Shown here piece by piece: positions 15,737 to 19,245 of a stretch of 64,000 nt of DNA; position 1 is the stretch's first letter; the number at the start of each line of letters is the position of its first letter. The translations under genes and the position numbers were made by a program. Under the pieces are notes generated by a model, which was not told the origin of the DNA, made no database searches, and was given only the letters and a program-made list of their open reading frames with translations. The DNA lies in the NCBI GenBank assembly GCA_037176885.1, contig JAWWNJ010000089.1:496001-560000 (forward strand). The letters run 5' to 3'. This DNA is from Favolaschia claudopus. Lineage: Eukaryota > Basidiomycota > Agaricomycetes > Agaricales > Mycenaceae.

Positions 15737-16082
15737 CGCCGGGTTTCTGCGACATGTCAATTACTTCTCTGCTTTACCTCCTCGTCCTCGTTCTCAGTTC
15801 CAGCACGTAAAATGAAAGTCCTTGTATTAGGGTGAGTCAATTTCTCACAAGTGCTACAACACTGGCCCAGCTCATCGGCCTATCGTTGTACAGTGGGACT
15901 GGATTCATCGGGTTCCCCGCTGCACAAGCATTAGTGCGGAAGGGATACACAGTTTATTCCCTCGCCCGCTCCGAAGCCAAAGAAAAAACTCTAGCAGCCG
16001 AGGAAAGTACGTCCACCCTTCAACTTTCTCCTCTTATTGTCACTAATCTTGTTTTCAATCCCATGCACAGTCATCCCAATCT

Positions 16083-16086
16083 CCGG
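16083..16086 (+). repeat. Target-site duplication (left)
   Basis: CCGG directly before the element; the matching CCGG is at 17884-17887. Confidence 0.75.
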
Positions 16087-16235
16087 TGGAGTGGGCCACC
16101 CCGAGTCGCTAGAGGAGCCACAAGCCAAAGCAATCGATAGCGTGGTGGCTACGGACAAGCTGAATGACTACTACTCGGAAGCTACTGCCAAACACGACCA
16201 ACATGGTGTGGTGTGGGCCTCAGCCCACCACCACA
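16087..16235 (-). repeat. 3' LTR of the element
   Basis: 149 bp. Differs from the other LTR by two indels only: this copy has an 18-bp extra segment containing the hairpin TGGGCTGAGGCCCA and lacks a 10-bp segment present at 17743-17883. I see no substitutions in the remaining ~130 bp, suggesting a young insertion. Confidence 0.8.
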
Positions 16236-16334
16236 TGCGCCCACCACCTCTATGGCGGCGTCCTCGCCGCCATCAGCTACGCCAAGAAACAAAGATGAGA
16301 AAAAACGTCCAAGAAACAGCGCTCAAACAAAATC

Positions 16335-17369
16335 TCAACCCGGCCGCACGGCCCGCACCCATCCCAATGCCGTCAATGCCCGACTCAGGTCGTGAAGTCG
16401 AGGGTCGTGGTCCCATGCGAGTGAAGAATGCGCGGTGGAATCTAAGGAAGGAGTGAATGTAGTCGAGGGATGAGGTCGTCCGTCGCGGTCGGCATAAGCC
16501 GTTTTCGATGTCGATGGATAAATATTCAGGACAAATGTCCGAGGTCGATTCGGTATGCGAGATGTCGGTGAGGGAGATGAGTGAAAGGAATAGGCTCGAG
16601 GGGAACGTCGGTGACGACGCCGAAGACTCCCAAATGGGTTCCTGACGTCGGAGCGTAAGGAGGAGAAGTCGCGAAGAAGTGCTGGGGCGGACGCGGGATG
16701 CGCCTTTGGATTTTCGTCGATAATTGGATATGCGCGGACGAACGCGTCGTTTTCAGGGGACGATACGGGAGTAGAGAGATTGAGGGAGACGGGTGAATCA
16801 GTCTTTGCAGTCACAGATGGACAAGGTGCAGGATCGAGGGTCGATGAAGGAGACGGGAGATTGGCGGAGACAAAGTCAGGGACAGTGGAGATTGTCTGAG
16901 TCGCGGTGGAGGCGGTGGACGGACGAAGGGAACAAGCAGACGGGGGACGTGCCTCTGTGGAACGACGCGAGCGCTCAATCTCGCACGCTAGAGCAAACCC
17001 AACGTCGTAGCCCCAAACACGTTCCTTCTCAAGCTCCTTCTCGTGATCCATCGCCGCCTCCTTCAAACCTAGCTCAATCCCTGCCCGCATACCTTCACAC
17101 CTTCCCTCTTCCCATGCCCCATCCATGATCATCTCTCTGTCAATGTCACTTGCGTCCTGTGCATCTTTTGCGCCGTGGCTGAATGCGAGAATTGCGACAG
17201 TCTTCCAAAGCTTCTCGATAGCGTCGATGACGGACTGTTTAGAGCCAAAGACGGGGTCGTGTAACGTCTTGGCAGCATTAAGGACGTTGCGGCAGAGCGT
17301 GCCGATGGTAGCATTATCTTCAGCAGAAAACACGATTCTGGTGGGCGGATTTTGGGCCATGGTAGCCAC
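16335..17369 (-). CDS. ORF carried by the short-LTR element, unknown function
   Basis: A single uninterrupted frame of 344 codons in the same orientation as the element, starting MATMAQNPPTR. Residues 1-125 look all-helical and charged, with an unusual Gly/Glu-rich piece (WEEGRCEGMRAGIELGLKEA) and EKERVWGYDVGFALACE; residues 130-235 are Ser/Thr/Pro-rich and probably disordered; the rest is Arg/Ser/Pro-rich, ending TALGWVRAVRPG. It has no Cys-His zinc knuckle, protease DTG/DSG or polymerase YxDD motif. It could be a captured and retrotransposed host gene (it has no introns) or an element-specific structural protein. I do not recognise the family. Confidence 0.65.
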   Translation of the reverse strand: MATMAQNPPTRIVFSAEDNATIGTLCRNVLNAAKTLHDPVFGSKQSVIDAIEKLWKTVAILAFSHGAKDAQDASDIDREMIMDGAWEEGRCEGMRAGIELGLKEAAMDHEKELEKERVWGYDVGFALACEIERSRRSTEARPPSACSLRPSTASTATQTISTVPDFVSANLPSPSSTLDPAPCPSVTAKTDSPVSLNLSTPVSSPENDAFVRAYPIIDENPKAHPASAPALLRDFSSLRSDVRNPFGSLRRRHRRSPRAYSFHSSPSPTSRIPNRPRTFVLNIYPSTSKTAYADRDGRPHPSTTFTPSLDSTAHSSLAWDHDPRLHDLSRALTALGWVRAVRPG

Positions 17370-17711
17370 AATAGAGCTGAGAATGCTGGCTGTCGCCGAG
17401 AAACCGGGGTCCGCGCGTGAACGCAGTAGGCGCTGGGGAAACGCTGGATAATGGTGGCGTGTCTGGGGCTATCGGGTGCACCAGAAATGCAGATTGCGCA
17501 GCTCGCAATTCGCGCAAATCAGATAACGCGGCAAGTCGCAAAAACGCAGTAAAACACAGAGACGCGTAGGTAGACCCAGAAAACCGCAGGGAAACACAAG
17601 GGAACGCAGATCGCAGTCGATCGCGCTCGTGGATGGTCGCTGATGGTCCTCGCAAGGCCGGGAAAATCGAGATCGCAGAAGATCGGCGACAGAAAAAGCT
17701 GATAGATGTCG

Positions 17712-17739
17712 CGTGGGTCGAATCGCACTCTCGTCACCA
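17712..17739 (-). promoter_or_regulatory. tRNA-complementary primer-binding site
   Basis: The plus strand reads like the 3' end of a tRNA: a T-arm with GTGGGTCGAATCGCAC, then TCTCGTCA and CCA, three bases before the LTR. It resembles my memory of the 3' end of eukaryotic tRNA-Ser(GCU), apart from a one-base deletion and a few changes. On the minus strand this is a PBS beginning TGGTGACGAGAG. Confidence 0.65.
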
Positions 17740-17742
17740 AAA

Positions 17743-17883
17743 TGGAGTGGGCCACCCCGAGTCGCTAGAGGAGCCACAAGCCAAAGCAATCGATAGCGTG
17801 GTGGCTACGGACAAGCAGTCACAAGCTGAATGACTACTACTCGGAAGCTACTGCCAAACACGACCAACATGGTGTGGACCACA
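17743..17883 (-). repeat. 5' LTR of the element
   Basis: 141 bp; on the minus strand it begins TGTGGTCCACACC and ends CCCACTCCA. It contains a 10-bp segment (agtcacaagc on the plus strand) missing from the other LTR. Confidence 0.8.
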
Positions 17884-17887
17884 CCGG
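17884..17887 (+). repeat. Target-site duplication (right)
   Basis: CCGG, second copy, directly after the element. Confidence 0.75.
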
Positions 17888-19245
17888 CGACGTCTCCTCC
17901 GACGCGTGGATCCCCCTCATCGCAACTCTCGACGTTATAATCGAAACTGTCACCGGCTCCGCCGACGGCTCCCGCTCCGTCCTCGAGCGCGTCGAAAAAG
18001 CCGCAACAGCCCTCCGTCCACCTGGCTCCCCTCTGCTCTCATACATCTATACATCGGGTACATGGGTCCACGGCGACAGCCGCACCACCACCGTCACCGA
18101 CACCACTCCCATCCTCACCCCCGCGAAACTCGTCGCCTGGCGCCCCGCCATCGAACAGCTCATCGTCAGCAGCACCGTCCTCAACGGCATCGTCATCCGA
18201 CCGGCGCTGCTCTACGGCCGCTCTGCCTCGATTTTCTCGATGCTGTTTAAAGGGGCCGCGGAGGGGAGGGTGAGTTGGCCGGGGACGCCAGGGGGGAGGT
18301 ACGCGCTGGTACATGCGGATGACTTGGCGGAGCTGTATGTGTTGTGCGCGGAGAAGGCGAGCGTGGTTGGGGGGAAGATTGTTGATGGGGCGAATCCAAT
18401 GACGGAGTCGGTGGATGAGTTGTTGGAAAAGCTGGTGAGGGTTTCGGGCGCGAGGGGGCCGTACGAGTATAGGGAGCCGGCGGATCGTATGTCTTTCTTT
18501 GGGGATTTTGTTTTGTTTCTTCAATTCATTGACGATACTCCTTTTTTTAGCGTTCGAGGAGGCGATCACGACGAACACGTTGCTTCGTCCGTATCTTGCT
18601 AATGCGTTATTGGGATGGACACCGAAAAAGCAGGGCTTTGTTGATGGGTTGGAGATGTATTACGTCGCTTGGCAGGCCTCTCTTTGAAGCCGTTTGTTTC
18701 GTTGACCCTTCACCTCGCGACGTGTAAGTAATTCTCAGTGTTCCCAGTTCGTCAAATAGTTGACTCCCTGGAAAACATTTGTGCTGTCAAATCGTATCAA
18801 TACTGCGGCCTCCTTCACTTTATTTCAGATCAATTTCAGATCCCTTCATCCCCCTTGCTGCTGCAGCTAATTCAAAATCATCATATGGTTCTTTTTGTCA
18901 ATTTCACGGTACGTCAAACAAGGTACCTCACTGCGCCCACAATATCTCAGAATTCTTGATCAACACCACTGGCGGCATGTATAGTCTCCACGGTGATTCT
19001 AAATCCTTTGTGAAATATGATGTTCCGGTGGACGCGGCCGTCACCGGATCTTTTGTCAAATTTTGTTCTGCTGTTGTTGTTTTGTGACTGGTTAGAAAGC
19101 CAGCTTATTGAACAAAGAGGTCGGACAAAACGCAAACCCCCGGGAGTTCTTGTGAGGAGCCACCGACCCCCGGGTGATCCGGAGGATCGCCGGGTGTTCC
19201 GCATTACAGTTGTTACAGTCACGGTCACTCTCTTTGCCCTTTGCC

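Follow-up and report, generated by a model that had tools for sequence, protein, structure and literature searches.

The locus examined here raises the question of what kind of element is bounded by long terminal repeats (LTRs) and encodes a single protein that does not resemble Gag or Pol. The window is a stretch of 64,000 nucleotides of Favolaschia claudopus DNA, C89:496001-560000, from an assembly of 264.6 Mb in 460 contigs; C-numbers below denote contigs and L-numbers loci, all of this same genome. The initial annotation had described a short-LTR, non-autonomous element of the TRIM type, caught in a host exon, and had taken its open reading frame (ORF) to be either a captured host gene moved by the machinery of a partner or a new element-specific protein.

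The element occupies positions 16087-17883 and has minus-strand sense, pointing left, so that its 5′ LTR is the right-hand one. The 5′ LTR (17743-17883, minus strand, 141 bp) lacks an 18-bp hairpin piece found in the other LTR, and the 3′ LTR (16087-16235, minus strand, 149 bp) lacks a 10-bp piece found in its partner. Alignment of the two, both with the TG...CA ends already noticed, gave 131 matches, no mismatches and these two indels of 10 and 18 bp. The indels fall within 16155-16235 and 17811-17883; the 18-bp piece is hairpin-like and the 10-bp piece lies between short direct repeats. Related LTRs in the genome measure 144-168 bp, mostly 149-160, and the window LTRs are indel variants of these. 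The CCGG target-site duplication was read in the sequence on both sides (16083-16086 and 17884-17887). The tRNA-complementary, CCA-ended site that had been placed three bases inside the upstream repeat is a primer binding site (17722-17739, minus strand), separated from the 5′ LTR by a TTT spacer (17740-17742). It is complementary, with one change, to the 3′-terminal 18 nt of tRNA-Leu including CCA, its complement resembling the tRNA-Leu 3′ end plus CCA, and the likeness to tRNA-Leu extends beyond the site to about 17712. At the other end of the 1507-bp interior, a purine-rich tract, AGAGGTGGTGGGC (16239-16251, minus strand), is followed by a GCA spacer (16236-16238) and the 3′ LTR, and the hairpin GGCGGCG-AGGA-CGCCGCC (16254-16271, minus strand) lies just upstream of the tract. 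The sole gene is an intronless ORF in the sense of the element (minus strand), encoding a conserved, element-specific protein. It has the 344 codons first reported when counted from a GTG at 17369 (16335-17369) and gives 341 aa from the first ATG downstream of the primer site (16335-17360). Because the window 5′ LTR contains one ATG, the transcript may hold an ATG ahead of that of the ORF. With direct LTRs, TG...CA ends, a target duplication, a primer site, a purine tract and, elsewhere in the genome, solo LTRs, the element is an LTR retrotransposon.

The insertion disrupts exon 3 of a host NAD-dependent epimerase-like gene of four exons (15812-18687, plus strand). Removal of the element, one CCGG and three introns restored exactly the 294 codons (885 nt) that had been predicted, and the restored product is an NAD-dependent epimerase (Pfam E 4.7e-11). 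The 3′ part of this gene has eight other genomic matches, and all five that we inspected run uninterrupted through the insertion site; the junction letters are identical in three of them, differ by one base in L079 and have changed more in L080. Nine closely related copies (85-100% identity), on C89, C205, C206 and C178, make up the family of the host epimerase; five of them are on C89.

The LTR and the interior each had at least 36 matches in the genome, so the element is not a chance arrangement. A protein-level search located the ORF, whole or partial, at 27 places (29 matches, two with stops inside). These matches are single open frames, and all those whose flanks were read for LTRs, which are all but C56, C3:1319033, C123, C187, C128, C5 and C155, sit in LTR elements. 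The ORF is open in nine of the copies first examined, and it is broken or partial in C265, C316/C137, C156/C3:21561, C5 and C155. With these further copies, the uninterrupted paralogous sites and the open frames, the outcomes named beforehand as refuting the initial annotation did not arise. At least six ORF groups were found among the copies read. Three of them, C89/C132/C11, C8/C139 and C125/C7, share one LTR type; the LTR starts with TGTGCCGG in C26/C131, with TGGAGTAGG in C76/C99, to which C116, C11:2436360 and C105 are joined by a DNA match, and with TGTGGTAGG in C3:1528, where it is 140 bp long. The two LTRs were identical over the aligned stretch in seven of nine pairs measured (C11, C139, C125, C7, C131, C99 and C3:1528); the pair of C26 agrees at 152 of 153 positions, and that of the window copy differs by indels only. 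The near-identity of these pairs indicates that several groups moved recently.

Target duplications, read by eye and scored only if the LTR ends on both sides were clean, flank nine of ten distinct two-LTR satellite copies, five distinct clean solo LTRs and all four of the helper elements described below; the exception, C139, is without a matching duplication. All have the form NCGN, and the CG at the centre of all 18 counted duplications amounts to an apparent target preference. The count excludes C132:416573, C316/C137, C118, C354, C265:107117, C76:594850 (3′ end cut off), C3:1528 (upstream side cut off) and LTR matches that were not fetched, and it takes haplotype twins once (C3:20642 with C156; C265:58808 with C132:607070). 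Insertions present on two contigs (C316/C137 and C156/C3) probably represent two haplotypes, and the place counts therefore exceed the number of distinct insertions. Two contigs considered as partners sharing part of the LTR, C133 and C34, were rejected by eye as LTR fragments without a primer site. A further candidate, C52:175350 (L087), has an LTR-like start and a primer site but no family-like frame among those of at least 90 aa in the 2.15 kb read.

Several copies appear to preserve traces of reverse transcription. The primer is tRNA-Leu with anticodon AAG (six gene loci, read by eye), and none of the six tRNA genes encodes the CCA. The copies at C132:416540-416722 (L040) and C316/C137 (L044, L045) are missing the 5′ LTR, and their ends read LTR-TTT-tRNA; the copied stretch of tRNA-Leu, CCA included, is of about 45 bases in C132 and of about 43 bases in C316/C137 (one mismatch in the latter). 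They would thus be inserted reverse-transcription intermediates, caught before plus-strand transfer. A circular or rolling-circle origin for these copies was set aside, because a copied tRNA end with CCA beside the TTT spacer is what is expected of such an intermediate. Upstream of the satellite copy at C3:1528 (L089 1-274, reverse strand) we found an LTR-TATGCA-LTR junction of 3+3 bases, as would be expected from the join of a two-LTR circle. In addition, C11 and C139 have LTRs that are 94% alike, whereas the ORF of C11 is 60% like that of C139 and 94-96% like those of C89 and C132, a conflict that would fit recombination between co-packaged RNAs.

The stem of the hairpin occurs in three versions, GGCGGCG, GGCAACG and GGCGACG, each with a matching partner. 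All 34 of 34 cells are paired and two of seven pairs have changed on both sides, the latter a result reached by 70 of 500 shuffles; the support that these paired changes, from five sequences, lend to the hairpin is modest. Its fold energy was no better than that of shuffled sequences (z -0.82). A search of ten loci against Rfam for a ribozyme or other structured RNA gave no match at the gathering score and five weak ones, three of which lie on the tRNA T-arm of the extended primer site. ARAGORN called no tRNA in six copies, in the window or in four tRNA-Leu loci, probably owing to the intron or to the code setting.

The same terminal signals led to candidate helpers. A 35-base pattern of hairpin, purine tract and LTR start occurs at 16 places in the genome, and a pattern of LTR end and primer site at 39, with satellites and helpers included in both counts and no control matches for either. 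Elements on C2, C152, C233 and C78 carry both signals, spaced 6.5-8.7 kb apart. A C2 pol probe matched C152 and C233 nearly full length and C78 over most of its length; the last, a helper-type element at C78:963168-971826, measures about 8.7 kb from primer site to purine tract and so exceeds the other helpers by 2 kb. On C2 there are a gag ORF, 521 codons long when counted from a TTG, and a 1554-codon pol, in which RVT_1 and both RNase H models scored above the Pfam cut-off, rve at the cut-off and Integrase_H2C2 below it, in the order reverse transcriptase, RNase H, integrase. No Pfam family was found for the gag ORF. Its structure model is of low confidence (mean pLDDT 55); the top nine Foldseek matches of this model were Arc, dArc1 and PNMA2 capsids, of which the best had E 1.8e-3 at a probability of 1.00 and none reached an E below 0.001. 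The full-length Ty3/Gypsy elements that share these cis signals are likely to be the helpers of the satellite. Both a primer-site pattern and pol matches are present on C234, C77 and C29, which suggests a second helper group; in LTR end and primer site, C234 and C77 agree with the C76 subfamily at 91% of 45 bases.

The initial annotation had proposed a search for an autonomous partner with the same LTR and primer site. The primer site and the LTR ends are shared, but the helper LTRs, of 168-179 bp, are only 49-59% identical to the satellite LTRs (three helper LTRs compared), and the LTR bodies are not recognisably related beyond the ends. Consequently, the link to the helpers rests on the LTR ends, the primer site, the purine tract and the target duplications. 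These shared signals point to movement by the machinery of a partner.

To judge whether the ORF is a gene in its own right, we compared copies. In five independent close pairs pooled, 126 of 1257 synonymous and 127 of 3711 nonsynonymous sites differed (p=1e-17), with omega values of 0.55, 0.36, 0.32, 0.34 and 0.22. The C132-C11 pair (omega 0.55) was not significant alone (p 0.07), and the C89-C132 pair (omega 0.48, p 0.006) was left out of the pool as non-independent. The ratio pN/pS was 0.19 in the N-terminus, 0.14 in the RDFS-RRHRR block and 0.06 in the C-terminus; in the linkers it was 0.83 and 0.72. The ORF family is therefore under purifying selection, concentrated in the helical N-terminus, the arginine-rich motif and the C-terminus. 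In simulations of neutral change, the frame stayed open in 5.5% of 2000 sequences at a distance of 0.1, so one close open copy says little; at distances of 0.5 and 0.9 none of 2000 was without a stop, yet real copies that diverged are open. Between the primer site and the ORF start there is no ATG in any of 11 copies, an absence with a single-copy chance of 0.0065 to 0.0955 in the satellites, whose copies are not independent of one another, and the C2 helper likewise has no ATG before the internal gag ATG used.

The protein itself had no family in Pfam, no retroelement domain among the Pfam models and no sequence relative in the PDB. The description of the element as non-autonomous and of its ORF as unrelated to gag or pol held in the sequence tests, the latter also in direct comparison with the helper Gag. 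A search that reaches relatives sharing short words found 34 distinct proteins with no assigned function, and those with organism names, all 'hypothetical', come from Favolaschia, Mycena or Roridomyces, all Mycenaceae. Three blocks are conserved: a helical N-terminus ending in ERVWGxDVG, the stretch RDFSxLR...PFxSLxRRxRR, and a C-terminal LDWDHDPRLxDLSRALTALGW. The C125/C7 ORF type departs from this at the N-terminus, where it lacks the ERVWG block. An ORF subtype represented by L048, L049 and L057 has a different N-terminal region, with the ERVWG block absent in L048 and L049, which is indicative of domain swapping within the family. An AlphaFold2 model of the ORF has confident helices at about 16-139 and mostly low confidence in the rest (mean pLDDT 62); with this model Foldseek gave no match below 0.001 and no capsid among the 50 listed of 317 matches. 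Weak Yae1_N matches were seen in three of 26 family proteins (best E 0.0068), a possible hint at the origin of the glycine-repeat helix. A tree of 29 proteins separates the ORFs of Favolaschia elements into two clades: nine form one of them, and the other three sit among proteins of Mycena and Roridomyces (98/97); the finer order is unsure because the branches are long. The two clades imply that the ORF was in elements before those lineages parted, unless it was captured twice. Among the literature results listed, with subscription papers and Repbase outside the scope, we found no report of this ORF family, nor of any mushroom LTR satellite whose single ORF is not a Gag.

These data would be best explained, with a probability of about 0.8, by a protein-coding satellite of Ty3/Gypsy retrotransposons in F. 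claudopus. In the proposed cycle, LTR-driven RNA would be translated into the ORF protein, and the same RNA would be packaged in Gag particles of the helper, primed by tRNA-Leu and copied by the helper reverse transcriptase; the helper integrase would then insert the DNA copy at NCGN. Since selection acts between mobile-element copies, it suggests a benefit of the protein to the copies encoding it. It may do so as an adaptor that binds its own RNA and docks that RNA to a helper protein. In detail, the adaptor would combine a helical and perhaps self-assembling N-terminus, the arginine-rich motif, disordered linkers and the near-invariant C-terminal motif; a single feature, the arginine-rich motif, suggests RNA binding, and we regard this detailed picture as tentative, possible but well short of probable.

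Two other roles suit the data nearly as well as that of an adaptor, namely regulation or inhibition of the helper and action against silencing. In these roles the protein would restrain the helper or counter host silencing instead of escorting RNA. Satellites elsewhere interfere with their helpers, and the conserved blocks suit any protein-binding role; no result here favours regulation over escort, and the arginine-rich motif hints at nucleic acid. Such a role is a serious possibility, although not a probable one.

Alternatively, the ORF could be an accessory gene, Env-like or regulatory, that outlasted the loss of gag and pol from an autonomous element, whether a former or an unseen one. Extra ORFs are known in LTR elements, and Retand TRP28 of plants and ORF3 of rotifer elements, like the present ORF, are conserved; however, in the excerpts consulted (PMC11963269, PMC5408684) they are described beside gag and pol, whereas here the ORF is the only gene. 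Moreover C2, the one helper read end to end, has gag and pol as its only forward ORFs of at least 150 aa, the others being antisense, and we consider this origin unlikely.

Capture of a host gene, one of the two origins initially offered, would mean that a cellular mRNA was picked up between two LTRs by reverse transcription and that the copy has hitch-hiked since. The ORF is indeed intronless and without a known retroelement domain, and the weak Yae1_N matches make an ancient host origin possible. However, searches that reach relatives sharing short words found no named relative outside Mycenaceae, and no parent host gene was found in the F. claudopus genome or in the protein searches, in which Mycena relatives were compared as proteins alone. 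Captured copies would also have to account for several diverged subfamilies with purifying selection between copies, and for the split of the element ORFs into two clades, one of which lies within proteins of Mycena and Roridomyces. The single open frames, the LTR-element context wherever flanks were read and the purifying selection favour the other origin, a new element-specific protein, and capture is improbable.

Still less probable is that, as in TR-GAG elements, the ORF is a Gag from the helper family that has diverged greatly and the element a deletion derivative. The ORF occupies the place of gag in the element, Gag relatives occur in the same genera, and the N-terminus is predicted to be helical. 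As the helper Gag, the ORF was rejected both by BLASTP, which found no similarity (E 0.8), and by profile comparison (probability 1.2%, E 0.043 for a single comparison), and the helper Gag model, poor as it is, finds capsids where the listed matches of the ORF model hold none. Finally, the reading of the frame as a meaningless by-product of GC-rich, recent sequence, in which other frames are open for 80-140 codons and close copies may stay open by chance, is already refuted by the pooled selection, by its focus in three blocks and by open copies as far apart as those at which every simulated frame had closed.

A protein-coding satellite differs from the systems that it most resembles. LTR elements that are small and lack enzymes are usually regarded as passive passengers, for the most part non-coding, and the interiors of TRIMs are short and non-coding, whereas here an interior of 1.5 kb holds a selected ORF; the name TRIM, apt for a short-LTR element, is thus too narrow for this 1.8-kb coding one. 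LTR elements with captured genes, such as maize Bs1, likewise have a non-retroviral ORF between LTRs; those have a host parent, whereas for the present ORF we found no parent, and it makes up a selected family of several subfamilies. Rice and sorghum provide further examples, according to the part of the source consulted (PMC3726574). The closest likeness in LTR size is to TRIMs, which include Helenus and Ajax and occur in fungi too; as far as the excerpted account goes (PMC10886601), they share short LTRs, a primer site, a purine tract and the lack of gag and pol, but fungal Helenus has 5-bp duplications and tRNA-like LTRs, whereas here the duplications are of 4 bp and neither Rfam nor ARAGORN named a tRNA in the copies scanned. 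The closest in anatomy are the TR-GAG elements of plants. The available extract (PMC8704663) describes them as small, non-autonomous LTR elements in which one ORF is intact and whose movement is attributed to the proteins of a related autonomous element; their ORF is a Gag, whereas the present one is not a Gag by sequence or profile and has no capsid among its listed fold matches. Neither TR-GAG nor TRIM elements such as Helenus, as described in these extracts, code for such a protein. The hepatitis delta antigen is the single protein of a satellite and has a coiled coil, an arginine-rich motif and a C-terminal docking part. The likeness to the present protein is one of analogy, between one-protein satellites whose replication is different, and we claim no sequence relation.

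A further, speculative possibility is that these elements represent a long-lived class of retro-satellites, so far found in Mycenaceae only, with an RNA-escort protein of their own. Through a helical domain for assembly, an arginine-rich motif for RNA binding and a docking motif at the C-terminus, this protein would secure cis-preferential loading of its RNA into Ty3/Gypsy particles, in a strategy like that of hepatitis delta, and the class would have outlived several LTR replacements and used more than one helper lineage.

As a satellite of Ty3/Gypsy retrotransposons, the element would belong to a superfamily that keeps one protein under selection through many movements while apparently borrowing all else. 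The role of this protein, which is unlike any matched retroelement protein, is a new and testable question. The superfamily may offer a simple system in which to ask how cis preference is achieved by non-autonomous elements and how these hold their own in competition with helpers, and it supplies a likely context for a set of 'hypothetical proteins' in Mycenaceae genomes.
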